Assembly (NCBI RefSeq): GCF_002095435.2
Contig: NZ_MJEJ02000025.1
Location: 1 to 64,000, forward strand
DNA length: 64,000 nt
From: Williamsia sp. 1138
GTDB taxonomy: Bacteria > Actinomycetota > Actinomycetes > Mycobacteriales > Mycobacteriaceae
Direction: 5' to 3'
The stretch's first letter is position 1, and each line of letters starts with the position of its first letter. The notes beneath the pieces were generated by a model, which saw only the letters and a program-made list of their open reading frames with translations, searched no databases and was not told where the DNA came from. The position numbers were made by a program, and so were the translations under genes. This document shows positions 36,197 through 48,868 of the stretch, one piece after another.

Positions 36197-37312
36197 CTAG
36201 AGGTCGAGTGTGCATTCGCCAGACACGGTGCTGATGCACGTCTGGATTCGATCTCCTTCTCGGCGCTCGTCTCCCGAACGCAGGTCTCGAACGTAGCCCG
36301 CGGACAGCGGTACGACGCACGATTGACAAATGCCCATCCGGCAGCCGAACGGCATCTGGATGCCCAAGTCTTCCCCGGCTTCCAAGAGCGTTGTCGCACC
36401 GTCGATTTCTGCTGACTTACCGGTCTTGCTGAACGTGACGGTGCCACCTTCGCCGCCCTTGTCGGTGCGTGCGATCGCGAACCGTTCGATGTGCAGGCTG
36501 TCGTTCAGTCCGGCTTTTTCCCAGACCTGTTCGGCGACATCGAGCATCTCGACCGGGCCGCAGGCCCAGCACTCGCGTTCCTTCCAGTCCGGGACGACCG
36601 ACCCCAGGTCGTGGAGGTCGATCTTGCCGTCTTCCCGGGTGAACTGCATCTCCAGCTGGTATGAAGGCGACTCCTGCTGCAGCGCAACGAGTTCGTCGTG
36701 AAAAATGACAGATTCGCGGTTCGGCGCGGAGTGCAGGTGCACCACGTCCGGCATGTCGCCGCGAGAGCGCAGACCACGCAACATCGCCATGACGGGCGTG
36801 ACACCGGAACCGGCGGTAACGAACAACACCTTCTTCGGCGGCGGACTGGGCAGCGAGAAGTCGCCCTTGGGTGCCGCGAGACGGATGACAGTTCCCGGTA
36901 GTACACCGTCTACGAGGTGACTGGACAGGAAGCCGTCGGGATTCGCCTTCACGGTCACCGAGATGACTTTGTCGTCGCCGGCAATAGACGTCAGTGAGTA
37001 CGACCGCCAGTGCCATCGGCCCTCGACCTGCAAGCCGATCCCGACGTACTGGCCGGGACGATAGCGATGGCTGAAGCCCCAGCCGGTCTCGATGTCTACT
37101 GTGGCCGTGTCGTCGGTTTCCTTGCGAACAGCCACGATGCGTCCGCGTAGCTCGCGAGCGGACCACAGCGGGTTGAGCAGGTGCAGATAGTCGTCGGGCA
37201 GCAACGGGGTCGTAGCCCGTGCCACCAGCCCCCTGAGCACATTGATCTGAGGTTTGGTCGCCTCCACGCCGGCGGCGGGGCGCTTACTCCACTTCAGCAG
37301 GTCCACAAACAC
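36197..37312 (-). CDS. Ferredoxin reductase partner of the desaturase (Rv3230c-type)
   Basis: A 371-residue NAD(P)H-dependent oxidoreductase with three domains: an FAD-binding barrel (GQYVGIGLQVEGRWHWRSYS), an NAD-binding domain (LFVTAGSGVTPVMAMLRGLR and CWACGPVEMLD) and a C-terminal [2Fe-2S] ferredoxin domain (FGCRMGICQSCVVPL with a final C in RIQTCIS). In M. tuberculosis the homologue donates electrons to DesA3. Here too it precedes the desaturase by 12 bases. A palindromic GTGTACA-CA-TGTACAC lies 69 bases before its start and is a likely operator. Confidence 0.92.
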   Translation of the reverse strand: MFVDLLKWSKRPAAGVEATKPQINVLRGLVARATTPLLPDDYLHLLNPLWSARELRGRIVAVRKETDDTATVDIETGWGFSHRYRPGQYVGIGLQVEGRWHWRSYSLTSIAGDDKVISVTVKANPDGFLSSHLVDGVLPGTVIRLAAPKGDFSLPSPPPKKVLFVTAGSGVTPVMAMLRGLRSRGDMPDVVHLHSAPNRESVIFHDELVALQQESPSYQLEMQFTREDGKIDLHDLGSVVPDWKERECWACGPVEMLDVAEQVWEKAGLNDSLHIERFAIARTDKGGEGGTVTFSKTGKSAEIDGATTLLEAGEDLGIQMPFGCRMGICQSCVVPLSAGYVRDLRSGDERREGDRIQTCISTVSGECTLDL

Positions 37313-37380
37313 TCCGCTCCTTGTTCACCGCTGCGATGACGCCCAGAGGGGCGCCACCGCGGCCGTGCATGTGGATTCGA

Positions 37381-37396
37381 GTGTACACATGTACAC
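37381..37396. promoter_or_regulatory. Operator-like palindrome upstream of the reductase-desaturase operon
   Basis: GTGTACACATGTACAC has seven-base inverted arms (GTGTACA/TGTACAC) around two bases. It lies in the only promoter-sized gap before the operon. TetR-type repressors control acyl-CoA desaturase genes in mycobacteria, but whether they use this box is not known to me. Confidence 0.5.
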
Positions 37397-37440
37397 CGCA
37401 GCGTCAGTGGAGTTCGCCGGGTGCGATCGTGGCGGACGAA

Positions 37441-38556
37441 CTACTTCGCGGGGAGCGAATCCTTCTCGGACGAAGCACTGCCGGCTGCGGCGGCTTCCCT
37501 GCGGTTGGCCACGATGCTCGAGAGTGCGGCCGCACCGATGAACGCGACACCGACGAGGCCGGTGATGATCTCGTTGATGTGCCACTTGATCGAGAAGAAC
37601 AGGATGGCCGCGAGAGCGCCGATGGCCCAGTGCGCGCCGTGCTCGAGATACCGGTATTCGTTGAGCGTCCCCGCCCGCACCAGGTAGACCGTGATGGACC
37701 GGACGAACATGGCGCCGATGAAACCGAGACCCAGGGCGATGATGATCGGGTCCGCCGTGATCGCGAAGGCTCCGATTACACCGTCGAACGAGAACGACGC
37801 GTCGAGGACCTCGAGGTAGAGGAAGAGGAAGAACCCGGCCTTACCGGTAGCTTTCGCCAGGGTGGACGGGCCGCCCGACTTGACCGCTTCCTCGTGCTCC
37901 GCGGTGAGTTCTTCGGTGTGGAAGAGCTGCCCGAGGCCGTTCACGGTGATGTAGGTGATGATGCCGAGTACACCGGCGACCATGACGGTCGAGATGTGGT
38001 CGTCGTCGGCGAGGAACTCGGCGATCAGTACCAGGCTTCCGCCGGCGATGACAACAGCGAGCTGATCGAGCTTGCCGATGACGGCAAGTGGCTTCTCCAG
38101 CCACGTCAACCACTTGATCTCGTTGTCTTCGAGGATGAAGTTGAGGAAGAGCATGAACAGGAACATGCCGCCGAAGGCCGCGATCTGCGGGTGCGCAGCA
38201 GTCAAGATCTCTTCGTAGGACTGCTGACCCGAGCCCTCTTCGGGGACGTTCATCGCGAGGTCGAAGGCCTCGACCGGATTCAGTCCGGCCGTGACCCAGA
38301 CGATGAGCAGCGGGAACAGCAGGCGCATGCCGAAGACGGCGATGAGAATGCCGATGGTGAGGAAGATCTTCTGCCAGAACTCACTCATCTTCTCCAGCAC
38401 GGTCGCGTTGATGACCGCATTGTCGAAGGAGAGGGACACCTCGAGGATTCCGAGGATTGCGCACAGAGCAAGCGCAGTCCACCCGCCATACAGGTACGCA
38501 ACGCCCAGCGAGACGATCGTGACAGCGATCGAAATGCCGAATACGCGGATGACCAC
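37441..38556 (-). CDS. TerC/DUF475-family integral membrane protein
   Basis: A 371-residue polytopic protein with about nine hydrophobic helices. The TerC-like repeats carry acidic intramembrane motifs, LEVSLSFDNAVINATVL near the N-terminus and LEVLDASFSFDGVIGAFAIT in the second half. These E-x-x-x-SxDN/D residues are thought to bind metal ions. It lies on the minus strand 106 bases after terD. In Ter systems this type of protein is the membrane anchor that may handle metal ions together with TerD. GTG start with AAGGAG ribosome binding site. Confidence 0.88.
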   Translation of the reverse strand: MVIRVFGISIAVTIVSLGVAYLYGGWTALALCAILGILEVSLSFDNAVINATVLEKMSEFWQKIFLTIGILIAVFGMRLLFPLLIVWVTAGLNPVEAFDLAMNVPEEGSGQQSYEEILTAAHPQIAAFGGMFLFMLFLNFILEDNEIKWLTWLEKPLAVIGKLDQLAVVIAGGSLVLIAEFLADDDHISTVMVAGVLGIITYITVNGLGQLFHTEELTAEHEEAVKSGGPSTLAKATGKAGFFLFLYLEVLDASFSFDGVIGAFAITADPIIIALGLGFIGAMFVRSITVYLVRAGTLNEYRYLEHGAHWAIGALAAILFFSIKWHINEIITGLVGVAFIGAAALSSIVANRREAAAAGSASSEKDSLPAK

Positions 38557-38583
38557 TCGTGCTCCTTAGTTTTGCCGGTGACA

Positions 38584-38621
38584 GCACTATCGCGGAACCG
38601 GGAATGGTTCCGCGATAGTGC
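38584..38621. other. Perfect 16-bp stem-loop between terD and the TerC-like gene
   Basis: GCACTATCGCGGAACC (38584-38599) pairs perfectly with 38606-38621 around a six-base loop. It begins about 40 bases after the terD stop and 28 bases before the TerC-like start. No T-run follows in the direction of transcription, so it may be an mRNA-stabilising or partial-termination hairpin rather than a full terminator. Confidence 0.7.
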
Positions 38622-38662
38622 GCAAGTGTACTTCTATGTAGTTGCCGTTCGTCGCCGGAAGG

Positions 38663-39238
38663 CTAGACGTTCACGCCGAAGTCACGAGCGATGCCTGCGA
38701 GACCCGAGGCGTAACCCTGACCGATTGCGCGGAACTTCCACTCGGCGCCGTTGCGGTACAACTCGCCGAAGACCATTGCGGTCTCGGTGGAAGCATCTTC
38801 CGACAGGTCGTAGCGAGCGAGTTCGGTTCCGTTCGAACGGTCGGTGACCCGGATGTAGGCGTTGCGGACCTGACCGAACGATTGCGAACGCGCATCCGCG
38901 TCGTAGATCGACACGGGGAAGACGACCGACTCGATGTTCGGCGGCACTGCGGCCAGGTCGACGTTGATGACCTCGTCGTCACCTTCGCCTTCGCCGGTGG
39001 TGTTGTCACCGGTGTGCTCGATGGAGCCGTCCGGAGACCGCAGGTTGTTGAAGAAGATGAAGTGCTGGTCGGAGACGACCTTCTTGTCGGCTCCGGCGCC
39101 GATCGCGCTCGCGTCCAGGTCGAAATCGGTGCCCGTGGTGGAACGCACGTCCCAGCCGAGACCGACCGCCACTGCGGTCAGGTTCGGAGCCTCCTTGGTC
39201 AACGAAACGTTTCCGCCCTTGCTCAAGCTGACGCCCAT
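38663..39238 (-). CDS. terD: TerD-family calcium-binding stress protein
   Basis: A canonical single-domain TerD of 191 residues. MGVSLSKGGNVSLTKEAPNL and VAVGLGWDVR open the domain, DFDLDASAI is the first Ca-binding segment, and the second, DGSIEHTGDNTTGEGEGDDE (70-89), holds the two calcium sites. EWKFRAIGQGYASGLAGIAR closes it. TerD proteins are cytosolic and respond to tellurite, oxidative and envelope stress, possibly with TerC at the membrane. It is divergent from the biosynthetic ter operon, sharing a 234-base promoter region. Confidence 0.93.
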   Translation of the reverse strand: MGVSLSKGGNVSLTKEAPNLTAVAVGLGWDVRSTTGTDFDLDASAIGAGADKKVVSDQHFIFFNNLRSPDGSIEHTGDNTTGEGEGDDEVINVDLAAVPPNIESVVFPVSIYDADARSQSFGQVRNAYIRVTDRSNGTELARYDLSEDASTETAMVFGELYRNGAEWKFRAIGQGYASGLAGIARDFGVNV

Positions 39239-39413
39239 GTCAGTACCCTTCCTGAGTTTGTCTTCGTGAGTAGATGAGGCCCAGAGGTCCGAGCAAACTT
39301 CTGCTCAGAACCAGTCCTTGGAAGTAACCGTACGTGAAAGTGGACATCGACGGGGGCGACAAAGCCGAACGCTGAACCGATTGAATGACTCCTGTTTCGT
39401 CGGCCGCAGTACG

Positions 39414-39445
39414 ACCGGCTCCCTTTGTCCACCGGCGGAGCCGGT
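39414..39445 (+). other. Hairpin in the leader of the ter biosynthetic operon
   Basis: ACCGGCTCC (39414-39422) pairs with GGAGCCGGT (39437-39445), a nine-base stem with a 14-base loop, 28 bases before the operon's first start. It could be an RNA leader structure. The rest of the divergent 39239-39472 region shows no clear promoter by eye. Confidence 0.35.
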
Positions 39446-39472
39446 CCCCGTCATCCCAGTAGGATGCGCGGT

Positions 39473-40684
39473 GTGGCCAGGGGCTGGTTTCGACGAGATG
39501 ACCGTAGCGCCGGTGGCGGATCCACTGGCGCCGTCGAACGTGCTCGAAACGACATGGTCACTGCGTTTCTCCAGCTCGATCAGCGCCTGTCGATCATCAG
39601 TAATTCTGTCGCGGCTGCCGAGGTGCTGGGCACAGGTGGCGAGTTGGTGCGCGCCTTCGTCCCCATCCGAGACTCCTGCTACGAGACGATCAACCACTAC
39701 CTGACCCTGAGCGGAACCGACAGGCCGCCGGCACCCCTGGCCGACTATCAGCGCACGATGTCCATGATCACCGATTCGATCCGCGCGCTCGACCAATTCT
39801 ACGAACGCCACTCGACCCAGCTCGAGCACGCCAGGGTCTCGTATGCAGCAGTACCTGATGAAGCGGCTCGCGTGCGTTCCGATTCTGATCGCCTCGCTGA
39901 TCGGCTTGCTTCGCTACCTGCCGATCAACTGGCGTACACCTCCGTGAAAACTGCTGTTCAACAACATGATCAATGTCTCACCGAACTCGAGTCCGCCCAG
40001 CTGGCTGTCTCCCAGGGAGGTGGCGACCGGGCGGACCTCCGGGCCAAGACCGCAGCGCTCGGCGAGGCCGTCAAGAAGCTGGAACAGGCCATCGCTGCAG
40101 CTCCGGGCAAGGCCGAGGACGCGCGCGCGGCGCTTGCGTCGGTCCGAACCCGCTTGTCGGCGGTCCAGAACAGGAGCGCCAGGATGCCTGAGGCGTACTC
40201 CGCGCTGCTCCGCGAATTCAGCGCCCAGTGCTCTCGCGACCTCGTCGGTCATGAACGCCGCAGTGCACAGGATCTCGAACTCGCCTCCAGCGAGATCGAC
40301 TCGGCCGCAAGCGCACTGAGATCAGATCCCGAAGCTGCGCTCGCGGCCGTCACCCGGGCTCGAGCACACCTGTCGGAGGCCGAGGAATTGGTGGACGGGG
40401 TCACTGATCGTTTGAATGAACTTCGGGTTGTTCAGCAGGATCCGCCTGCAGCTGCCGGTAGGGTTCGGTTCCAGATCCGGGACGCTCAATTGCTCGCCGT
40501 CAACCTCGGTGTGGTCAAACAATGGGGATCGGTTCTGGATGCACAGGTTTTGAGAGTCGACCGGGCCGTGGCAGCCCTGACCGGTCGGCATCCTGATTAT
40601 TGGGGGTATCTGGTGGACCTGCGCGCCATCTCCGACTTCGTGTCCGGAGTAGTGAGCAAGATGAAGGACGAGGCCAGACGGTGA
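39473..40684 (+). CDS. Coiled-coil protein of the Ter operon, unknown function
   Basis: About 403 residues, almost wholly helical with long heptad-like stretches (LDQFYERHSTQLEHARVSYA, LREFSAQCSRDLVGHERRSA, AVTRARAHLSEAEELVDGV). A conserved-looking C-terminal segment includes VRFQIRDAQLLAVNLGVVKQ and HPDYWGYLVDLRAISDFV. GTG 39473 is chosen for the upstream GTAGGATG; an ATG at 39464 is nearly equivalent. No enzyme motif is seen. It is the first gene of a six-gene chain with overlapping starts and stops, so it may scaffold the Ter complex. Confidence 0.75.
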   Translation: MARGWFRRDDRSAGGGSTGAVERARNDMVTAFLQLDQRLSIISNSVAAAEVLGTGGELVRAFVPIRDSCYETINHYLTLSGTDRPPAPLADYQRTMSMITDSIRALDQFYERHSTQLEHARVSYAAVPDEAARVRSDSDRLADRLASLPADQLAYTSVKTAVQQHDQCLTELESAQLAVSQGGGDRADLRAKTAALGEAVKKLEQAIAAAPGKAEDARAALASVRTRLSAVQNRSARMPEAYSALLREFSAQCSRDLVGHERRSAQDLELASSEIDSAASALRSDPEAALAAVTRARAHLSEAEELVDGVTDRLNELRVVQQDPPAAAGRVRFQIRDAQLLAVNLGVVKQWGSVLDAQVLRVDRAVAALTGRHPDYWGYLVDLRAISDFVSGVVSKMKDEARR

Positions 40685-41886
40685 CGACAGACTCGAACGC
40701 CGCCGGTAGCGCAAGGACGAAGCAACTGCAGCACTTCACCGCCCTCGACGACGCAGACCGCGAACGACTGTTCTTTCGCGTTCCCGAACCGATCGGGATG
40801 GACGCACCTCCGGAACTGCTCAGTGTCGCCCTGGGCGCAACGCTGTACATTCCTGCGAGCCGAGAACGACTCGCCGAACTGATCCTGCGACAGCGCCGGA
40901 GCGGTTCGACGTCGATGGTCATCGACCTCGAAGACGCAATCGCCGACGGGGACGTCGACGCGGCCATCACCAACCTCACCAACGCACTCGACGAACTTGC
41001 GGCCGGTCGCAAGGCGGCGCCACTGCTGTTCGTCCGGGTGCGGCGCCCTGCGCAGATAGATGAATTGCTCGGACGGCTCGGCGGCGGCGTCGACAACCTT
41101 GCCGGGTTCGTCCTCCCGAAGTTCACCGGGGTGGACGGTGACGACTACCTGAACCGGATCCACGCCGCACAGGCACAGGTCGGCCGGGTGCTGTACGCGA
41201 TGCCGATCATCGAGTCGACGTCCGTTCTCCATCTCGAAACCCGCACCGCTGCGCTGGAGTCGATCAGGCAGGTGCTCGACAAACATCGGAGCAAGATCCT
41301 GGCCGTCCGGATCGGGGGCACCGACATGTGTGGTGCGCTCGGTATCCGGCGCGATCCCGACCTGACCATCTATGACGTCCACCCGGTCGCCGAGGTCATC
41401 AGTGCCATCGTCAATGTGCTCGGTAGGGCCGACGGCACCGGCTACACGATCACGGGGCCGGTGTGGGAGTACTACAACACCCACGACCGGATGTTCCGGC
41501 CATTGCTGCGCCACACGCCTTTCGAGGAGATCGATGCGGTCCGCTTCCGGACGCATCTGGTCAGTCGTGATCTCGATGGCCTGCTACGCGAGTTGGTTCT
41601 CGACCGTGCGAACGGCCTGCAGGGCAAGACCGTCATCCACCCATCGCACGTGAACGTCGTGCACGCGATGAGCGCAGTGCCACACGAAGAGTACGACGAT
41701 GCTGTTGCGGTGCTGGGGGTCGACGACACGGGCGGTGTGCTGGCTTCGGCCTACCGGAACAAGATGAACGAGCGCCGCCCACATCGGAACTGGGCGATCA
41801 AGACACTCATCCGGTCCCAGGCATTCGGAGTGCTGCAACCCGACATCGGTGTGGTCGATCTGCTGACGGCCGTGGTGGTTCGATGA
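40681..41886 (+). CDS. HpcH/HpaI (citrate lyase beta-like) aldolase of the Ter operon
   Basis: A 401-residue TIM-barrel C-C lyase. SMVIDLEDAIADGDVDAAI holds the Mg-binding acid, LFVRVRRP the substrate Arg, VLPKFTG the next strand, and YAMPIIESTSVLHLETRTAA the catalytic Glu region. RIGGTDMCGALGIRRD and GKTVIHPSHVNVVHAM are family signatures. GTG 40681 overlaps the previous stop by four bases. CitE-like proteins are a fixed part of the Ter metabolite module, where they are predicted to split or join a small acid. The substrate is unknown. Confidence 0.88.
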   Translation: MTTDSNAAGSARTKQLQHFTALDDADRERLFFRVPEPIGMDAPPELLSVALGATLYIPASRERLAELILRQRRSGSTSMVIDLEDAIADGDVDAAITNLTNALDELAAGRKAAPLLFVRVRRPAQIDELLGRLGGGVDNLAGFVLPKFTGVDGDDYLNRIHAAQAQVGRVLYAMPIIESTSVLHLETRTAALESIRQVLDKHRSKILAVRIGGTDMCGALGIRRDPDLTIYDVHPVAEVISAIVNVLGRADGTGYTITGPVWEYYNTHDRMFRPLLRHTPFEEIDAVRFRTHLVSRDLDGLLRELVLDRANGLQGKTVIHPSHVNVVHAMSAVPHEEYDDAVAVLGVDDTGGVLASAYRNKMNERRPHRNWAIKTLIRSQAFGVLQPDIGVVDLLTAVVVR

Positions 41887-43175
41887 TCGCCGGCAACCGC
41901 GCGGCTCCGGGTACCGAGGCGTATGCACGCGAACACTTCGGGCTCGATGCCGAGCACGTGTCCGGTGTCAACGGCTGGCGTGTCGAAGACCTGGTTCGCC
42001 CGGGTCTTCGGCGCAACCCGAAACGGGCTCACCTCTGGGTGTCCACGGTGCTCGGTAAGCACATACCTGTTCCGCCCGCTGTGATCTTCGCAGCCGCAGC
42101 CGATCTCGGCGTACTGGCGACTGCCGCCCTGGGCGTACATGGGCTCGGCGATTGTCTGGTCTTCGGGTTCGCCGAGACCGCCACAGGCCTGGGACATGCT
42201 GTCGCGCACCAGATGGATGCCGGACACTACCTGCAGTCGACCCGGCGCGGGAACTCCGCGGCTCCGGTGGTCGCTCGTTTCGAAGAGGGTCACTCGCACG
42301 CCACCGATCACCTGATCGTGCCCACGGACCCGGATCACCTGTACACCGATCTGCCCGTGGTGCTCGTCGACGACGAGATCTCCACGGGCGCGACGGCCCT
42401 GGACGCGATCTCATCGATGCAGCGCATACACCACCGATCGCTGTACATGGTGGCATCGCTGGTCGACATGCGTACCGACGAAGACATCACGCGGTGTCGT
42501 CGGCGCGCGGAAGAACTCGGCACCGAGGTCGAGTTCGTCAGTCTGGCCCGCGGTAGAAGCCAGATTCCAGCAGGCCTGCCCGCAAGGGTTGTCGGGTTGC
42601 CGGCTGCAACACCTCCCCCGACTCCCCTGCGCCCAGGATCGGTGCAGCGACTGGAGGTACCGTGGCCGGCATCGATTCCCGACGGTGGTCGCCACGGTTT
42701 TCGGCGGGCCGATTGGCCACAGTTCGACGAGGCCGTGTCCGAGGTGGCCGGGGTCGTGGCAGGGCACTTGGATCCGACCAGGTCGATCGTCGTGGTCGGA
42801 CACGAGGAACTGATGTATCTGCCTCAAAGGGTGGCCGGGAGTCTAGCCGAGTTCGTCGAAGCCCCGATCCTGAGTCAAACCACCACTCGATCGCCCGCAC
42901 ACGTGATCGACCACCCGAACTATCCGCTGCGACGCGGGTACCACTTCATTGCGCCCGAACCAGATGAGGCACGAGATCGATACCTGTACAACGCAACTCA
43001 TGACGATCCCGGAGCGAGATTGGTGATGATCATCGATTCGCCCGCCGATACCGAAGCGCTGACGGCAACGGATGGACTGCTCGACACCCTCAGCGGCGCC
43101 GGGATCGATGTCTTGCTGGTGGTCGTGCCGGGGACCGATTACCTCGCCCTCCGTGCAGCGAGGGAGACGCCATGA
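41883..43175 (+). CDS. Phosphoribosyltransferase with TRSP domain
   Basis: A 430-residue protein. The first part (about 30-230) is a type I PRTase with the PRPP loop VVLVDDEISTGAT at 159-171 and EGHSHATDHLIVP before it. The C-terminal part (about 275-430) is a TRSP domain named for short motifs of that kind, here VGHEELMYLPQRVAGSL and SQTTTRSPAHVIDHPNYPL. These enzymes are predicted to attach or release ribose phosphate on a nucleoside-like compound. ATG 41883 overlaps the previous stop (ATGA). Genes on both sides belong to the same module. Confidence 0.87.
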   Translation: MIAGNRAAPGTEAYAREHFGLDAEHVSGVNGWRVEDLVRPGLRRNPKRAHLWVSTVLGKHIPVPPAVIFAAAADLGVLATAALGVHGLGDCLVFGFAETATGLGHAVAHQMDAGHYLQSTRRGNSAAPVVARFEEGHSHATDHLIVPTDPDHLYTDLPVVLVDDEISTGATALDAISSMQRIHHRSLYMVASLVDMRTDEDITRCRRRAEELGTEVEFVSLARGRSQIPAGLPARVVGLPAATPPPTPLRPGSVQRLEVPWPASIPDGGRHGFRRADWPQFDEAVSEVAGVVAGHLDPTRSIVVVGHEELMYLPQRVAGSLAEFVEAPILSQTTTRSPAHVIDHPNYPLRRGYHFIAPEPDEARDRYLYNATHDDPGARLVMIIDSPADTEALTATDGLLDTLSGAGIDVLLVVVPGTDYLALRAARETP

Positions 43176-44308
43176 GTTCCGGTCGCGACATCAGGGTGTC
43201 CCCGCGTCCACTCACCGGACCCGACTTCGGCAGCTATGGCCCCGACGAGGTGAAGTGGCTCCTCAAGGACCTCTCCTCGGTGGCGCTCGAAGGTGACGTG
43301 GCTGCGCGGGAGCGACGAATTCAGGCGGGCCTCGCCCACTACGCGGAGTCGCTGCCCGTCGAGTTCCAGCCCGATGCCGCCTACCAGGAGTTGTTCGGGC
43401 GAGTGTTGGCAAACAGTGCGCATCGCCTGGCTGTCGCAGTGGGTGCGGTGACAGAACTCGTTCTCGCAGAACGCGGTACCGACGTGGTGCTGGCGTCTCT
43501 GGCCAGGGCGGGAACACCGGTCGGTGTGTTGATGCGTCGCTGGGCCCAGCACCACCACGGTCTGGACCTCCCCCACTATGCGGTGTCGATCGTCCGCGAC
43601 CGGGGGATCGATGCGAACGCCATGAAATACCTTGCTGCCCATCATGATCCGGAGAAAGTCGTGTTCGTCGACGGATGGACCGGGAAGGGTGCGATCACCA
43701 GAGAACTCGCCGAAGCCCTCACTGCTTTGTCGGTCGACGGTGGCCCGGTGTTCAACCCGGATCTGGCGGTGCTCGCGGATCCGGGCGCGTGCGTGCGCAC
43801 CTTCGGTACCCGAGACGACTTCCTCATCGCGTCGGCATGCCTGAACTCGACGGTGTCCGGTCTGATCTCGAGAACGGTGCTGAATGCGGACTTCATAGGT
43901 CCTGACGACTTCCACGGCGCCAAGTTCTACGCGGAACTGTCCGGGCAGGACATGTCGGCCGTTCTGCTGGACGCCGTGACCGCCGAATTCGACTCGGCAA
44001 CAGGGGAAGCGTCAACCCGTCGAGACGAGATCCGCCGTTCGGACCGCACGCCGACCTGGTCCGGATGGCGATCGGTCGAGGAGGTCCGCCTCAGTCACGG
44101 CATCTCTTCGGTCAACTTCGTGAAGCCAGGGGTCGGCGAGACCACCCGTGTGCTGTTGCGCAGGGTTCCCTGGATGATCCTGGTCCGGACCGCCGATGAT
44201 CCCGAGCACGAGCACATCCGGGCGCTCGCCACTGCCCGAGGCGTACCCGTCGAGGTCGTCCCCGACCTCGCCTACAGCTGTATGGGTTTGGTGAAAGAGG
44301 TCTCGTGA
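43172..44308 (+). CDS. StiP-family protein with PELOTA-like C-terminal domain
   Basis: A 378-residue protein of the StiP type, once annotated as cysteine protease but containing a PRTase-like core: TDVVLASLARAGTPVGVLMR, HYAVSIVRDRGIDANAMKYL and KVVFVDGWTGKGAITRELAE. The C-terminal region, ILVRTADDPEHEHIRALATA followed by GVPVEVVPDLAYSCMGLV, resembles a PELOTA/L7Ae RNA-binding fold. The combination suggests nucleotide or RNA-linked chemistry. The start overlaps the preceding stop by four bases. Calling it a protease is not supported by anything visible here. Confidence 0.85.
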   Translation: MSSGRDIRVSPRPLTGPDFGSYGPDEVKWLLKDLSSVALEGDVAARERRIQAGLAHYAESLPVEFQPDAAYQELFGRVLANSAHRLAVAVGAVTELVLAERGTDVVLASLARAGTPVGVLMRRWAQHHHGLDLPHYAVSIVRDRGIDANAMKYLAAHHDPEKVVFVDGWTGKGAITRELAEALTALSVDGGPVFNPDLAVLADPGACVRTFGTRDDFLIASACLNSTVSGLISRTVLNADFIGPDDFHGAKFYAELSGQDMSAVLLDAVTAEFDSATGEASTRRDEIRRSDRTPTWSGWRSVEEVRLSHGISSVNFVKPGVGETTRVLLRRVPWMILVRTADDPEHEHIRALATARGVPVEVVPDLAYSCMGLVKEVS

Positions 44309-45294
44309 ACACACTCGACACCGCGGCGACACCGTCGCCGGGGCGTGCACTCGCCACCATCGATCTCGACCGCACCTTGATCTACTCGGCTGCCGCCATC
44401 GCCGAGGGTGCTGCGGACCCCGCCGCCGCGGCTGCGCTGTCAGCCGCCGCGCGCTGTGTGGAGATCTATCAAGGACGACCGCAATCGTTCATGTCGCCGG
44501 CGGCGATGGCCATGCTGACCGAATTGGCCGCGAGGGCCGAGGTGGTACCGACGACCACCCGCACCATCGAGCAGTACCGCCGGATCACGCTGCCGATCGG
44601 TACCCCGCGCTTCGCGATCACCAGCAACGGGGGCAACATCCTGGTGAACGGTGTTCGCGACGAAGCCTGGTCCCGGCAGGTCTCGGACCTGCTCGGCACG
44701 CTGGGCGCCGGGGTCGATGCGGTGTACGAGCGGCTCGGTGCCGACGCCGCCGGGGCGCCGTGGCTCCGCACGATGCGGATCGCCGACGGACTCTTCTGCT
44801 ACGTCGTTGTCGAATTGGAACTGCTTCCCCCGCAGGTGGTTCCGGCGTGGGCGAGCTGGGCCGCGGAACGTGGCTGGAACGTCTCCCGCCAGGGCCGGAA
44901 GATCTACGTGATGCCGGATCCGGTGACCAAGCAATTGGCGGTCGACGAGGTGCGCACACGGCTGCCCCACGTACCGTCGTCCAGTTACGCTGCGGGCGAC
45001 GGTGTCCTCGACCAGCCGATGCTGGTCGGCGCCGACGCCGCCATCCGCCCGCGCCACGGCGAACTGGAAGAACTCGGGTGGCGCCACTCGAACGTGGCGG
45101 TGACCGACGAGCGCGGCCTCGCGGCATCCGAGGAGATGCTGACATGGTTGTTGAGGCGGGCAGGCACAATGGTGAACGTCGACGAACCGGACAAATCGGC
45201 CTTCGACCGACAGGTCGCCGGTGTCGTCGGCGCAGACAAAGCACAGCGGAGCTCGATCATCGACAATTCCACACCCAACGAAGGGCTCAGGTGA
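44305..45294 (+). CDS. HAD-family phosphatase of the Ter operon
   Basis: A 329-residue HAD hydrolase. Motif I is ATIDLDRTLIYS (Asp nucleophile and acid), motif II is VVPTTTRTIEQY, and the motif III/IV region is the Lys of VTKQLAVDEV with SSSYAAGDGVLDQPML. The middle part forms a large cap, as in sucrose-phosphatase-like HADs, implying a small sugar or nucleotide phosphate substrate. GTG 44305 overlaps the StiP gene (GTGA), and its own stop shares one base with the next ATG. It would remove phosphate from the product of the PRTases. Confidence 0.87.
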   Translation: MNTLDTAATPSPGRALATIDLDRTLIYSAAAIAEGAADPAAAAALSAAARCVEIYQGRPQSFMSPAAMAMLTELAARAEVVPTTTRTIEQYRRITLPIGTPRFAITSNGGNILVNGVRDEAWSRQVSDLLGTLGAGVDAVYERLGADAAGAPWLRTMRIADGLFCYVVVELELLPPQVVPAWASWAAERGWNVSRQGRKIYVMPDPVTKQLAVDEVRTRLPHVPSSSYAAGDGVLDQPMLVGADAAIRPRHGELEELGWRHSNVAVTDERGLAASEEMLTWLLRRAGTMVNVDEPDKSAFDRQVAGVVGADKAQRSSIIDNSTPNEGLR

Positions 45295-46679
45295 TGACAA
45301 CAACTCTGGTCAAAGGGCAAAACGGTCCGCTGAACGCGGCGACGGTCGAGATCACCGTCGACCTCGCCACCGCGGGCGATCTGTCCGCGTTGCTGGTGAC
45401 CGACAACGGCAAAGTCCGGACCGACGCCGATTTCGTCTTCTTCAACCAGCCCAACGGGCCCGGGGTGTCGCTGCAAGCCGGCGCCGGGATCGGAACCCTG
45501 GCCATCTCGCTGGGAGCCGTCCCTGCCGACATCAGCCAGGTGCGAGCCGTGATCACGCTCGACAACGGCACCTTCGGCGCGGTGGCACCGCCGGTTGCCA
45601 GGGTCAGCGGCGGCGGACAACCGCTGTACGAATACCGGATCGATGGCCTGTCGAGTGAGTCGATCGTGATCGCACTCGAGGTGTACCGCCGAGGCGGCGA
45701 CTGGAAGGTCCGCGCAGTCGGGCAGGGTTACGCAGGCGGTTTCGCAGCACTGGTGACCGACCACGGCGTCTCGGTCGACGACGCACCCGCCCCCGCAGCC
45801 CCACCGCCGCCACCGGTGCGGAACAGCCCTCCGCCGAGCTACTCCCGGCAACCCTCCGCGCCCCCCGCGCAGCAGGCACCGCCTCAGAACCACCCGCCAC
45901 AGCAGCCTCAGCAGAACTACCCACCCCAACAGCCGGCTGCACCGAACTACCCGCCGCAGCAACCGCCACCTGCGGCGTACCCGCCCCCGCAACAGCCCGC
46001 TCCCAACCAGCAGCCGGCCTACAACCAGCAGCCCGGTTACGCCGCTCCGGCACCCAGCAGTCCACCCGAGGTCAGTCTCACCAAGAACCGACCCGTCAGT
46101 CTGTCGAAGGGGCAGCGTGTCTCGCTGAAAAAGGACGGTGGGGTCGCTCTCACCAACATTCAGATGGGGCTCGGGTGGGACCCCGTCGTCGTCAAGAAGA
46201 TGTTCGGGAGCCGCGGCGCCGACATCGACCTCGACGCGTCGGCCGTCATGTATGCCGACACCCAGCTCGCCGATGTCGCCTACTACGGGCAACTCACGTC
46301 CAAAGACGGCTCGATCCGGCACCTCGGCGACAACCTGACCGGCGAGGGCGAAGGCGACGACGAGGTGGTCACGGTCGACCTCACCCGCGTCCCGATGCAC
46401 GTCAACGCGATCATCTTCATCGTCACCTCCTATCAGGGCCAGACGTTCGAGCAGTTGCAGAACGCGTTCTGCCGACTGGTCGACCAGACCACGAATGTCG
46501 AGCTCGCCCGGTACACCCTCGCGGGCGGTATGGCCTACACCGGCGTCGTCATGGCAAAGGTGTTCCGAGAGGACGGCACCTGGAAGCTGCAGGCGATCGG
46601 TGAGGGCATCACTGCGAAGCATCCCGGAGAAGCCGTCCCGCAGCTGCAACGGTTCCTGTCGAACGACTTCATGAAGTAG
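45294..46679 (+). CDS. Two-domain TerD protein with Pro/Gln-rich linker
   Basis: A 461-residue protein. Residues 1-162 are a degenerate TerD-like domain (LVKGQNGPLNAATVEITVDL; WKVRAVGQGYAGGFAALVTD) lacking the acidic calcium loop. Residues 163-259 are a flexible linker rich in Pro and Gln with NYPPQQP-type repeats. Residues 260-461 are a complete TerD domain with DIDLDASAVMY and the calcium loop DGSIRHLGDNLTGEGEGDDE (338-357). ATG 45294 shares its A with the HAD stop. The linker would let the two domains reach different partners, for example the coiled-coil protein and the membrane TerC. Confidence 0.88.
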   Translation: MTTTLVKGQNGPLNAATVEITVDLATAGDLSALLVTDNGKVRTDADFVFFNQPNGPGVSLQAGAGIGTLAISLGAVPADISQVRAVITLDNGTFGAVAPPVARVSGGGQPLYEYRIDGLSSESIVIALEVYRRGGDWKVRAVGQGYAGGFAALVTDHGVSVDDAPAPAAPPPPPVRNSPPPSYSRQPSAPPAQQAPPQNHPPQQPQQNYPPQQPAAPNYPPQQPPPAAYPPPQQPAPNQQPAYNQQPGYAAPAPSSPPEVSLTKNRPVSLSKGQRVSLKKDGGVALTNIQMGLGWDPVVVKKMFGSRGADIDLDASAVMYADTQLADVAYYGQLTSKDGSIRHLGDNLTGEGEGDDEVVTVDLTRVPMHVNAIIFIVTSYQGQTFEQLQNAFCRLVDQTTNVELARYTLAGGMAYTGVVMAKVFREDGTWKLQAIGEGITAKHPGEAVPQLQRFLSNDFMK

Positions 46680-46701
46680 TCCCGATGACTACATTCGCGT
46701 C

Positions 46702-48339
46702 ATGAGCGAGTTGGTTCGCGGCCAGAACGTACCGCTGGAGGCATCGACTGTGGTGTTCTCTGTGGCCGGTGGCACGAGTGAGCTGGATCTGGTCGGGTTG
46801 GTGGTCGGTCCGGATCTGCGGACGAGGCACTCTGATGGCGTCGTCTTCTACAACCAGCCACAGACGGCCGGGGTTCGACTCGAGGGCCACCACATAGAGG
46901 TGGATCTGGGGACGTTGCCGCCTGACGCGATCGTGTTGTGTGCGGTGAGCGGTGATGCCGAGGCGCGCCTGGCGTCGGGCCTCACGGCCGAACTCGACGC
47001 TGTGCCGGACGAGTCCCGGTACTCGTTTCCGCTACACCCGCTTCACGGCGAGACGGCGCTGTTGTGCTTCGAGTTGTATCAGCGGTCGGGACGATGGCGA
47101 GTGCGCGCTCTCGGGCAGGGATATCAGGGCGGGCTCGCGGCGCTGCTGACCGCACACGGCGTCGAGGTCGACGATGCGCCGGACGTATCGCCTCGGGCAC
47201 CCGCAGACCCCGTACCTGTTGCGCCACAGACTGGCGACGGTCATCTGCCGCCTGCGCTGGTCACGCTCGGATCCGACTACGGCGCCGCCGTCGCGCGTGC
47301 CCACGTCGTGTTCGAGGATGCGGCCAGGTCGGCCGCCGGTTACGTCCAGGCGGAGGGTTTCGCGATGGACCGGCTCGACAGAGAACTCGGTGACCTGCTG
47401 GCCGATCCCGCACAACGCAACTCCCCGGCCGCCGACCGCGCGCGGGCCGCCGCGCAACAGCGGTGCGACGACCTCGTGACCTCAGCGAGAAGCCGCTTCG
47501 ACGCGGACTCCGCCGTGTTGATGGCCGAGTTGGCTGCCCTGGATCCGCAGTTGCCGGCGGCGATGGCATCGTGGGCGTCACCCGCCTGGAACCGCGCGAA
47601 CTCTCCGTCTGTTGGTGGTCTGCGCATCGGGGAGTTGTTCGCCCCCGAACGCGGCGATCTGCGGCTTCCGTTCTGTGTGCCGACACCTATCGCTCGACCG
47701 CTCTGGGTGCTCGACGCGGGCGACCCGGTACTGCCCGTGGTGACTTCTCTGGTGTTACGACTGGTGGTCGCCGCCCGAGTGCCGTTTCCCGGAATGCGGA
47801 ACAGCTCGACCGGTGGACAAGTGCTCATCGACGTCTTCGATCTGACGGGTTCCTTGGCACCCATGACGGAGATGCTGATGCCGATGCTCACCGCACCCGC
47901 GGTCACGGCGCCGGAGTCCGTCGCCGACCGGCTGTCGGTGCTGGAGTCATCAATCGATCTCACGCAGATGGCGCTGCAGGCCCGCGAGGTCGATGACATC
48001 GACACCCGCGTGGTGGTCATAGCGGACCTGCCATTCGGGTGGGACGTCGCGGCGCTGGCGAGGCTGGTGCGGATAGCAGACCGTGGAAGCGAACTGGGCT
48101 GGGCGTTCGTGTTCGCCGGGTCCCTCGACGACAGCGACAACGATCCCCTGGTGAGCACGATCGCGGATCGAACGATGATGATCCCTGTGACCGACGAGGC
48201 CCGGGCCCACGACCCGTGGGTCGGACTGCCGTGGTCGGTGGCGGCCGAGCGCATCGATCCGACCGGCACGCAGGCCAGGCAGATCGTTGCCACTCTGAGC
48301 AGTGACCAGCCGCGTTCAGGTGCCAACCCGAACGCCTGA
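46702..48339 (+). CDS. TerD-like domain fused to an FtsK/HerA-like domain without obvious Walker A
   Basis: A 545-residue protein. Residues 1-160 match the degenerate N-terminal domain of the preceding gene (LVRGQNVPLEASTVVFSVAG; WRVRALGQGYQGGLAALLTA; VEVDDAPD), so the pair arose by duplication. A helical middle (about 190-295) follows. The last 250 residues resemble the N-terminal ATPase-like part of FtsK-type proteins in Ter operons (PLWVLDAGDPVLPVVTSLVL, GGQVLIDVFDLTGSLAP, DTRVVVIADLPFGWDVAALA). No GxxGxGKS loop is present, so it is probably not an active ATPase. The family call is by pattern and moderate. It ends the operon. Confidence 0.75.
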   Translation: MSELVRGQNVPLEASTVVFSVAGGTSELDLVGLVVGPDLRTRHSDGVVFYNQPQTAGVRLEGHHIEVDLGTLPPDAIVLCAVSGDAEARLASGLTAELDAVPDESRYSFPLHPLHGETALLCFELYQRSGRWRVRALGQGYQGGLAALLTAHGVEVDDAPDVSPRAPADPVPVAPQTGDGHLPPALVTLGSDYGAAVARAHVVFEDAARSAAGYVQAEGFAMDRLDRELGDLLADPAQRNSPAADRARAAAQQRCDDLVTSARSRFDADSAVLMAELAALDPQLPAAMASWASPAWNRANSPSVGGLRIGELFAPERGDLRLPFCVPTPIARPLWVLDAGDPVLPVVTSLVLRLVVAARVPFPGMRNSSTGGQVLIDVFDLTGSLAPMTEMLMPMLTAPAVTAPESVADRLSVLESSIDLTQMALQAREVDDIDTRVVVIADLPFGWDVAALARLVRIADRGSELGWAFVFAGSLDDSDNDPLVSTIADRTMMIPVTDEARAHDPWVGLPWSVAAERIDPTGTQARQIVATLSSDQPRSGANPNA

Positions 48340-48343
48340 CGTC

Positions 48344-48691
48344 CTACCGCCAGCGTTCTGCCTCCCTGGCGAGGGCGACGAGTTCGGCACCCAGGCTTGC
48401 CAATTCGTTCTTGTCCGCGTTCTCGTCGACTGCCGTGGCAATGTCTTCTGCAGCACATCTGAGGCGAAACAGCCGTTCGATCAGGTCGTCGGCCTCTCCG
48501 GCGCTCAGCACCACGGAATCCGCGGGGATGGACGATCCGGCAACCAGGCTCCGCTGTTCGTACGCCCGTTGACGGCATGACTGCTTGCAGTACTTGCGGC
48601 GGCGTCCGATCTCGGACTCCACGATCTCGCGGCCGCACCACGCACACGAGTTACGCGCCCGATTGCGACGAGGGGCGGCCTCCTGCTCCAT
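48344..48691 (-). CDS. Small zinc-finger protein (Rv2049c-like)
   Basis: A 115-residue protein. The N-terminal third has a putative zinc site: SCAWCGREIVE (CxxC) and KYCKQSCRQRAYEQR (CxxxC). The C-terminal half is a helical bundle (EADDLIERLFRLRCAAEDIA; LASLGAELVALAREAERW). ATG 48691 is chosen since the longer frame from 48769 has no supporting ribosome binding site and runs into the promoter region. It is divergent from rbpA, as the counterpart Rv2049c is from Rv2050. The treble-clef-like finger suggests nucleic-acid binding. Function unknown. Confidence 0.75.
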   Translation of the reverse strand: MEQEAAPRRNRARNSCAWCGREIVESEIGRRRKYCKQSCRQRAYEQRSLVAGSSIPADSVVLSAGEADDLIERLFRLRCAAEDIATAVDENADKNELASLGAELVALAREAERWR

Positions 48692-48868
48692 ATCCGATGA
48701 CGGTACTCGGCGGCAGCGCGCATCGGTGACAACCGGGCCGAACACCGGTCTCACTTCGCCCGTCGGCACCCTGATTCACAGAAAGTCGGCGCCGGTGCCG
48801 CCGCCCGCGGCCGTCAGTCTCCAGACGCGCGTAAGATGGATAGGTAATCCAACGAGAGGATAGAAGTT

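Follow-up and report, generated by a model that had tools for sequence, protein, structure and literature searches.

An actinobacterial Ter gene island in Williamsia sp. 1138 with a conserved helical protein and a probably misnamed StiP enzyme

Results and Discussion

The Island Belongs to a Known, Predicted Ter System

We analyzed a stretch of 64,000 nucleotides from Williamsia sp. 1138 (contig NZ_MJEJ02000025.1, our contig C42 of a 6.08-Mb genome), referred to below as the window. The nine-gene Ter island at positions 37441–48339 is an actinobacterial form of a known, predicted system. One of its conserved components, a helical-bundle protein called CC here, is poorly described, and one enzyme, StiP, is probably misnamed. 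The nine genes lie where the original prediction, made from the window sequence, put them. It had called the island the best candidate in this DNA for an undescribed system, and that description is not supported: a Ter-dependent system with a biosynthetic module was predicted in 2012 (Anantharaman, Iyer, and Aravind, Mol Biosyst 8:3142), as cited in passages of PMC7824862, PMC8115787, and PMC7159879. According to a passage of PMC7824862, phosphoribosyltransferases (PRTases) and a haloacid dehalogenase (HAD) enzyme make a nucleotide derivative, TerB or TerD may sense it, and TerC responds at the membrane. A nucleoside-like metabolite from the Ter module is itself a published prediction. The proposal that the operon makes a signal or modified nucleotide handled by the TerD proteins fits this model and the domains found in the island; the original prediction is partly supported.

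The island resembles the 2012 system in having TerC, TerD, PRTase, HAD, lyase, StiP, and PELOTA in one neighbourhood: TerD and TerC genes lie by the module, which has a PRTase_2-TRSP protein, a StiP-PELOTA protein, a lyase, and a HAD phosphatase. It differs from that system, as known through parts of the citing papers, in having CC as the first gene of the operon, a DUF475-type TerC, and a TerD protein with a long C-terminal region; no ATP-grasp gene was found.

Our preferred reading, to which we give an even chance, is that the operon is the actinobacterial Ter biosynthetic module and makes a nucleoside-like product that is bound by TerD in a membrane-linked stress complex. In the proposed pathway the CitE-like lyase would prepare or trim a base-like acceptor, which PRTase_2-TRSP would join to phosphoribosyl pyrophosphate (PRPP). 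StiP-PELOTA, as a second enzyme of PRTase fold with an altered PRPP loop, could then transfer another ribosyl group or base, for which RNA may serve as template or substrate, and the HAD phosphatase would remove phosphate to give the nucleoside-like product. The TerD proteins would bind this product and, with TerC/DUF475 and CC, may form a membrane-linked complex that alters ion or metal flux or the envelope state under stress.

Gene Content and the Biosynthetic Enzymes

Two genes on the reverse strand encode a TerC-type membrane protein of the DUF475 branch (37441–38556, 371 aa) and a TerD protein (38663–39238, 191 aa) that is divergent from the biosynthetic operon. On the forward strand the operon begins with CC (39473–40684, 403 aa), the "coiled-coil" gene of the original prediction, followed by a C-C bond lyase with an HpcH/CitE-like TIM barrel (40681–41886, 401 aa), the phosphoribosyltransferase with PRTase_2 and TRSP domains (41883–43175, 430 aa), StiP with a PELOTA RNA-binding domain (43172–44308, 378 aa), a HAD-IIB phosphatase (44305–45294, 329 aa), a tandem TerD-TerD protein with two TerD stretches and a proline-rich linker (45294–46679, 461 aa), and a TerD protein extended by a long C-terminal region (46702–48339, 545 aa). 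Four 4-base overlaps (40681–40684, 41883–41886, 43172–43175, and 44305–44308) and one 1-base overlap (45294) join the first six genes of the operon, exactly the numbers counted earlier.

The active-site residues of the three enzymes around StiP are conserved. The lyase matches PF15617 at E 2.2e-118, and E84 and D85, along with many other residues, are kept in at least 95% of the rows of an alignment with 117 homologous stretches. PRTase_2-TRSP matches PF15609 (E 2.1e-57) and PF12500 (E 1.8e-30), both above gathering scores; the PRPP loop is kept, D164, E165, T168, G169, and T171 being invariant in 12 sequences, and the PRTase_2 profile matches the PRPP-loop region of PyrR at E 1.9e-5 and HGPRT only at 0.017. 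The TRSP domain was considered as a second PRTase domain and rejected: hhalign gave a colinear alignment of 76 columns, but with a probability of 2.4. The HAD protein falls below curated Pfam and NCBIfam cut-offs, and its identity comes from motif residues and a match to trehalose phosphatase 6cj0 (E 2e-11); D20, D22, T24, T85, G231, D232, and D236 are found in at least 95% of the rows of an alignment with 120 homologous stretches.

The Biosynthetic Module Is Inherited as a Unit

Co-occurrence was analyzed in draws of 151 genomes of the family, 296 of the class, and 296 of the phylum. Of the 151 family genomes, 74 have StiP, and each of these also carries TerD and a PRTase_2 over cut-off. PRTase_2 over cut-off is present in 75 family genomes (the 74 with StiP and the fragmented genome G043) and TerD in 77 (the 74 together with G012, G014, and G043). 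The lyase family is broad, with matches in 141 of 151 genomes; full-strength matches, at about E 1e-60 or better, come from the 74 StiP genomes, G043, and G014. The module is patchy within genera (3/9 genomes of g10, 4/9 of g9, 1/6 of g21, and 4/9 of g30), and TerD tracks it. In the window genome StiP and PRTase_2 are each present in a single copy.

Gene order was compared in 122 loci with 120 distinct StiP frames (the named locus L117, from an uncultured Williamsia, shares its frame with L086, and the named locus L157 with L092). The 80 named loci are the best 80 of 569 and therefore lean to close relatives; a fixed rule placed the gene starts of relatives, and fused reading frames were counted from stop to stop. 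The lyase, PRTase_2-TRSP, StiP, and HAD genes are contiguous and in this order in 114 of the 122 loci, and the arrangement is therefore not a matter of chance. Among the eight exceptions are four loci whose stretch begins inside the module (L136, L146, L172, and L173), two distant loci in which no lyase or HAD match was found (L094 and L095), and two viral contigs, L178 with another order and L179 with no lyase or HAD match. A start codon suited to the 4-base overlap is available at the CC/lyase junction in 20 of 49 loci, at lyase/PRTase_2-TRSP in 62 of 115, and at StiP/HAD in 57 of 119. At the PRTase_2-TRSP/StiP junction it is available in 35 of 122 loci, and in a further 84 of 122 the two genes form a single reading frame, which, together with the contiguous core, is expected if both proteins act on the same chemistry. 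The biosynthetic module is inherited as a unit: the original prediction had named independent scattering of the genes in related genomes as the result that would speak against it, and the genes are co-inherited and contiguous instead.

CC Is a Genuine Component of the Module

The start of CC is most likely the GTG at 39473, as judged from an alignment of orthologues. In the family draw the CC profile strongly matches 69 of the 74 StiP genomes, and the 77 others gave no strong match; four hits with E-values between 3.5e-4 and 9.6e-4 resemble coil background. In the class draw CC was found in 40 genomes, all 40 with StiP, at a distance of 2.8 to 12.5 kb, and in the phylum draw in 12 genomes, all of them among the 14 with StiP over cut-off. 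The co-occurrence P values are 1.5e-37 (family) and 1.8e-31 (class), both of which ignore relatedness. Among the 122 loci, CC immediately precedes the lyase in 48 and lies at another nearby position in 57; the other 17, of which some are short, gave no CC match. In four further loci, L191–L194, its neighbour is a TerD gene, and in three of these TerC comes next. Lying before the lyase in some loci and beside TerD or TerC in others, CC links both halves of the system. We conclude from its sequence distribution that CC is a genuine module component.

The AlphaFold2 model of CC is all helix (predicted local distance difference test, pLDDT, 94.8; predicted TM score, pTM, 0.79), and a Foldseek search gave no PDB fold match at E 0.001. 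No curated family was found for the window protein, which is below Pfam and NCBIfam cut-offs and gave nothing in PHROGs at E 0.001; in PADLOC it had coiled-coil-type matches only. Compared with PDB sequences, the CC profile finds generic helical proteins, the best being a chemoreceptor at E 5.7e-4. Residues 1–15 are modelled at low confidence. An aromatic-basic patch near the N-terminus (for example GWFRR or RRWFGG) is common in orthologues, being present in 95 of 105 by a loose regular expression used without a control, and it is a possible membrane anchor.

CC is all-helical, as is EzrA, and was compared with that protein: the window protein scores 21 bits against the Pfam cut-off of 39.6, weak EzrA sequence matches occur in 7 of 17 CC members (best E 2.3e-6), and of the 50 rows shown for its Foldseek search one is an EzrA structure, with E 3.3. 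We therefore do not assign CC to EzrA. No TelA appeared among the 25 of 53 families shown, and CC was not assigned to TelA either. No close relative was found in viral contigs with the window protein alone as query. A CC homologue with 38% identity over 93% is present on the 23,599-bp plasmid record NZ_CP063323.1 of Mycobacteroides, which suggests mobility of the module, in whole or in part, in mycobacteria.

StiP Is Probably Misnamed as a Cysteine Protease

StiP-PELOTA matches PF11202 (E 3e-103) and PF15608 (E 6e-34), both above gathering scores, and annotation pipelines name it "cysteine protease." We examined this name in two alignments, A2 with 16 sequences and A4 with 33, mostly close actinobacterial ones. 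No invariant cysteine was found in A2 or A4. Conservation of C207, C223, and C370 reaches at least 90% in A4, and they are lost in the distant A2 members L094 and L095. In Pseudomonas StiP, C223 is absent and the C207 cysteine is displaced. The cysteine of SACLNST is not present in this homologue. H56, H135, and H248 are invariant in A4, and A2 has no invariant histidine. A conserved catalytic pair of cysteine and histidine was thus found in neither A2 nor A4, and a protease identity is not evident; no protease was among the 50 Foldseek rows shown.

What is invariant is of another kind: RAG.P.G and FVDGWT in A2 and FVDGWTGKG in A4. We take RAG.P.G and FVDGWT to occupy the positions that the pyrophosphate loop and the PRPP loop have in PRTases. 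The AlphaFold2 model (pLDDT 89.4, pTM 0.90) has PyrR or HGPRT-type PRTases in 23 of the 50 Foldseek rows shown, with prob 0.89–1.00 and TMt 0.35–0.54, for example PyrR 1ufr (prob 1.00, TMt 0.51) and 4p83_C (TMt 0.54). PF00156 is touched by 2 of the 16 members, with a best E of 0.062. Sequence searches found no PDB relative of StiP, its profile gave only ribosomal-protein-type matches (E 0.16 or worse), and comparison with the TRSP profile gave no signal. Since profile comparisons gave no signal, the PRTase reading of StiP is based on its fold model, on the loop motifs, and on the PF00156 touch. The island resembles type I PRTases such as PyrR and HGPRT in the StiP fold model and in the PRPP-loop region of PRTase_2, and differs from them in the StiP loop, which lacks the acidic pair, and in the extra domains, StiP carrying PELOTA and PRTase_2 carrying TRSP. 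The reading is not wholly new, since the record of phage ME3 calls its StiP homologue "phosphoribosyl transferase," and StiP has an older Pfam name, PRTase_1. From the model we consider the StiP part to be PRTase-like, with PRTase activity uncertain, and the protease label probably a misnomer. A PRTase-like enzyme calls for a different assay than a cysteine protease.

A PELOTA domain follows StiP in 16 of 16 A2 members, and the PELOTA part of the profile is weakly like eL8/L7Ae (E 0.16–0.18). Together with a PRTase-like fold model whose PRPP loop is altered, this fits an RNA-directed pathway, in which StiP-PELOTA would act on RNA by base exchange or by ribosyl repair or modification, the output being modified or repaired RNA. 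The other enzymes would then make or recycle its substrate, with no free signal. Both parts of this explanation appear unlikely to us: no RNA target is known, the HAD and lyase enzymes are more typical of small-molecule pathways, and co-inheritance with TerD would be left unexplained.

Points against a Nucleoside-Like Product Bound by TerD

Several observations weigh against the preferred reading of a Ter biosynthetic module whose product TerD binds. The module has no known product, substrate, or phenotype, and no compound is named in the passages of the Ter literature searched, including those of PMC6790187 and PMC7244524. According to a passage of PMC8115787, Klebsiella terZ-F alone, without the biosynthetic cluster, gave tellurite resistance in Escherichia coli; tellurite resistance therefore does not need the module enzymes. 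One locus (L195, G520 C1:1213000–1232000) contains the core of four enzymes, and neither TerD nor TerC was detected within its 19-kb stretch, so the enzymes can exist with no membrane half close by. CC was missing from 5 of the 74 StiP genomes of the family (G017, G025, G060, G110, and G134) and from 28 of the 68 class genomes with StiP over cut-off, 26 of the 28 in one family; it is therefore not needed everywhere. In the family genomes G015 and G042, a different contig carries an additional, partial match to CC.

The remaining points concern StiP. The canonical PRPP loop carries an acidic pair, which is absent from the StiP loop region (DGWTGKGAI, against DDEISTGAT). The non-canonical loop may therefore not bind PRPP, and for this reason we call StiP PRTase-like and not a proven PRTase. 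The PRTase matches of its model are modest, with the TMt range given above and a root-mean-square deviation (rmsd) of 4.4–13. The other 27 of the 50 rows, including the four best E-values, are pyridoxal phosphate enzymes such as IscS, with prob up to 0.94; we discounted them because their TM is about 0.2 and their rmsd about 19–21. No profile similarity between StiP and PRTase_2 was found by hhalign (probability 1.7).

TerD and TerC Proteins

The TerC-type protein matches Pfam DUF475 (E 7e-130) and TerC (E 3.8e-15) and is above cut-off for NCBIfam PRK14013.1-3. The divergent TerD matches its Pfam family at E 1e-84 and, at full length, the solved TerD structures 3ibz (E 8e-99) and 2kxt (E 1.5e-77). 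A metal or metalloid homeostasis system would account for these two proteins, with TerC/DUF475 exporting or loading metal (Mn in Bacillus) and the TerD proteins buffering Ca or other metals. A passage of PMC12096827 reports that TerC proteins of Bacillus subtilis metalate Mn-requiring membrane and secreted enzymes, and a paper title ties a TerD gene of Streptomyces coelicolor to calcium homeostasis. Such a system does not require a PRTase or PELOTA, and B. subtilis has TerD without StiP (the TerD control matches there and the StiP control does not, the presence of TerC being taken from that passage of PMC12096827). We consider metal homeostasis of this kind, with the enzymes producing a chelator or detoxifying a metabolite, improbable as the role of the island.

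The last TerD of the island (46702–48339) matches the Pfam family at E 4e-14, and its C-terminal region recurs in 23 of 122 loci. This region is reminiscent of an FtsK-type ATPase without Walker A; Pfam gave no such match. Scattered TerD genes elsewhere in the genome encode a double TerD, TerD-AIM24, TerD-vWA (TerF type), and a plain TerD; away from the module, TerD-AIM24 lies on contig C21 of the window genome, G000 (L012:6276–7712), and TerD-vWA-TerF on C29 (L013:6607–7890). Just past the window end, at C42:65443–67467 (L009:5444–7468, reverse strand), TerD is joined to a long stretch whose VRR-NUC match is weak (E 0.043, below cut-off) and which looks like a restriction-type nuclease domain.

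Comparison with Plasmid and Phage Versions

Ter genes are widespread beyond the family genomes, with StiP matches in 2567 plasmid records. The Pseudomonas putida plasmid p12969-DIM (L180) shares with the island PRTase_2-TRSP, StiP-PELOTA, the C-C lyase, HAD, TerD, and TerC. Its order is ATP-grasp, trypsin/TerD, PRTase, "trehalose phosphatase," StiP, lyase, and HAD, then TerD, TerB, and TerC, and no CC match was found in its 25-kb stretch. Pfam describes the ATP-grasp of this type as part of the Ter pathway. ATPgrasp_Ter (PF15632) had no match in the Williamsia genome, as searched with one Pseudomonas query and no positive control, and no ATP-grasp was found at E 1e-3 in the actinobacterial loci L058–L177; it does occur in the actinobacterial locus L196, where CC had no match. 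We treat ATP-grasp as not defining because the stretch of phage ME3, called a relatively complete Ter system in a passage of PMC7824862, is also without a match.

The island might be a distinct actinobacterial Ter version in which CC, probably anchored in the membrane by its aromatic-basic N-terminus, replaces the ATP-grasp branch and connects the biosynthetic enzymes with the membrane complex of TerD and TerC, StiP being a non-canonical enzyme of PRTase fold that is positioned by its RNA-binding domain and makes a ribosylated product. We regard this more specific proposal as tentative and rather doubtful. CC and the natural PRTase-StiP fusions make up a compact gene set of harmless soil actinobacteria for a direct search for the product.

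In jumbo phage ME3, StiP is found with PRTase, HAD, TerC-like, and TerD-like genes. This, along with the plasmid records, the conflict roles proposed in a passage of PMC7824862, and a TerD gene some 17 kb further along that has weak similarity to a nuclease, could be explained by an anti-phage or plasmid-exclusion module with the metabolite as an alarm signal. We hold this to be very unlikely for the island, since no specific PADLOC family was found among the eight proteins other than TerC, seven of which had no match at all, and the close flanking genes scanned that have a Pfam match are metabolic or housekeeping-like: one flank has adenylate cyclase, fatty-acid desaturase, and ferredoxin-type reductase genes, and the other has genes for pirin and apolipoprotein N-acyltransferase.

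The exceptional locus L178 (IMGVR_UViG_2660238583_000003), listed as viral, has ATP-grasp, PRTase, HAD, StiP, lyase, and TerD genes in the order of the Pseudomonas plasmid and may be a plasmid or mobile element.

The Divergent Promoter Region and Minor Features

A 26-bp element at 39324–39349 (forward strand), between the divergent TerD and CC genes, is identical at 26 of 26 positions in the window and in the six other loci of the same genus compared, with differing flanking DNA; the best match among the searched loci of other genera is 19/26. The element is probably regulatory. It is the sole genome match within 3 mismatches of its last 25 bases, and with this single site a genome-wide Ter regulon box was rejected. 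The hexamer TAGGAT (39460–39465, forward strand) resembles a -10 element and lies 7 nt before the GTG start of CC, in a region, AGTAGGATGCG, that is conserved in loci of the same genus. Its position suggests that the CC transcript is leaderless. A sigma-70 scan found no site.

No tRNA was found in the 64-kb window, and no Rfam family within 37300–48800. Directly after the island is a small gene (48344–48769, reverse strand) with a weak DUF7576 match only; a counterpart is present in 12 of 122 loci, own-genus and Williamsia loci included.

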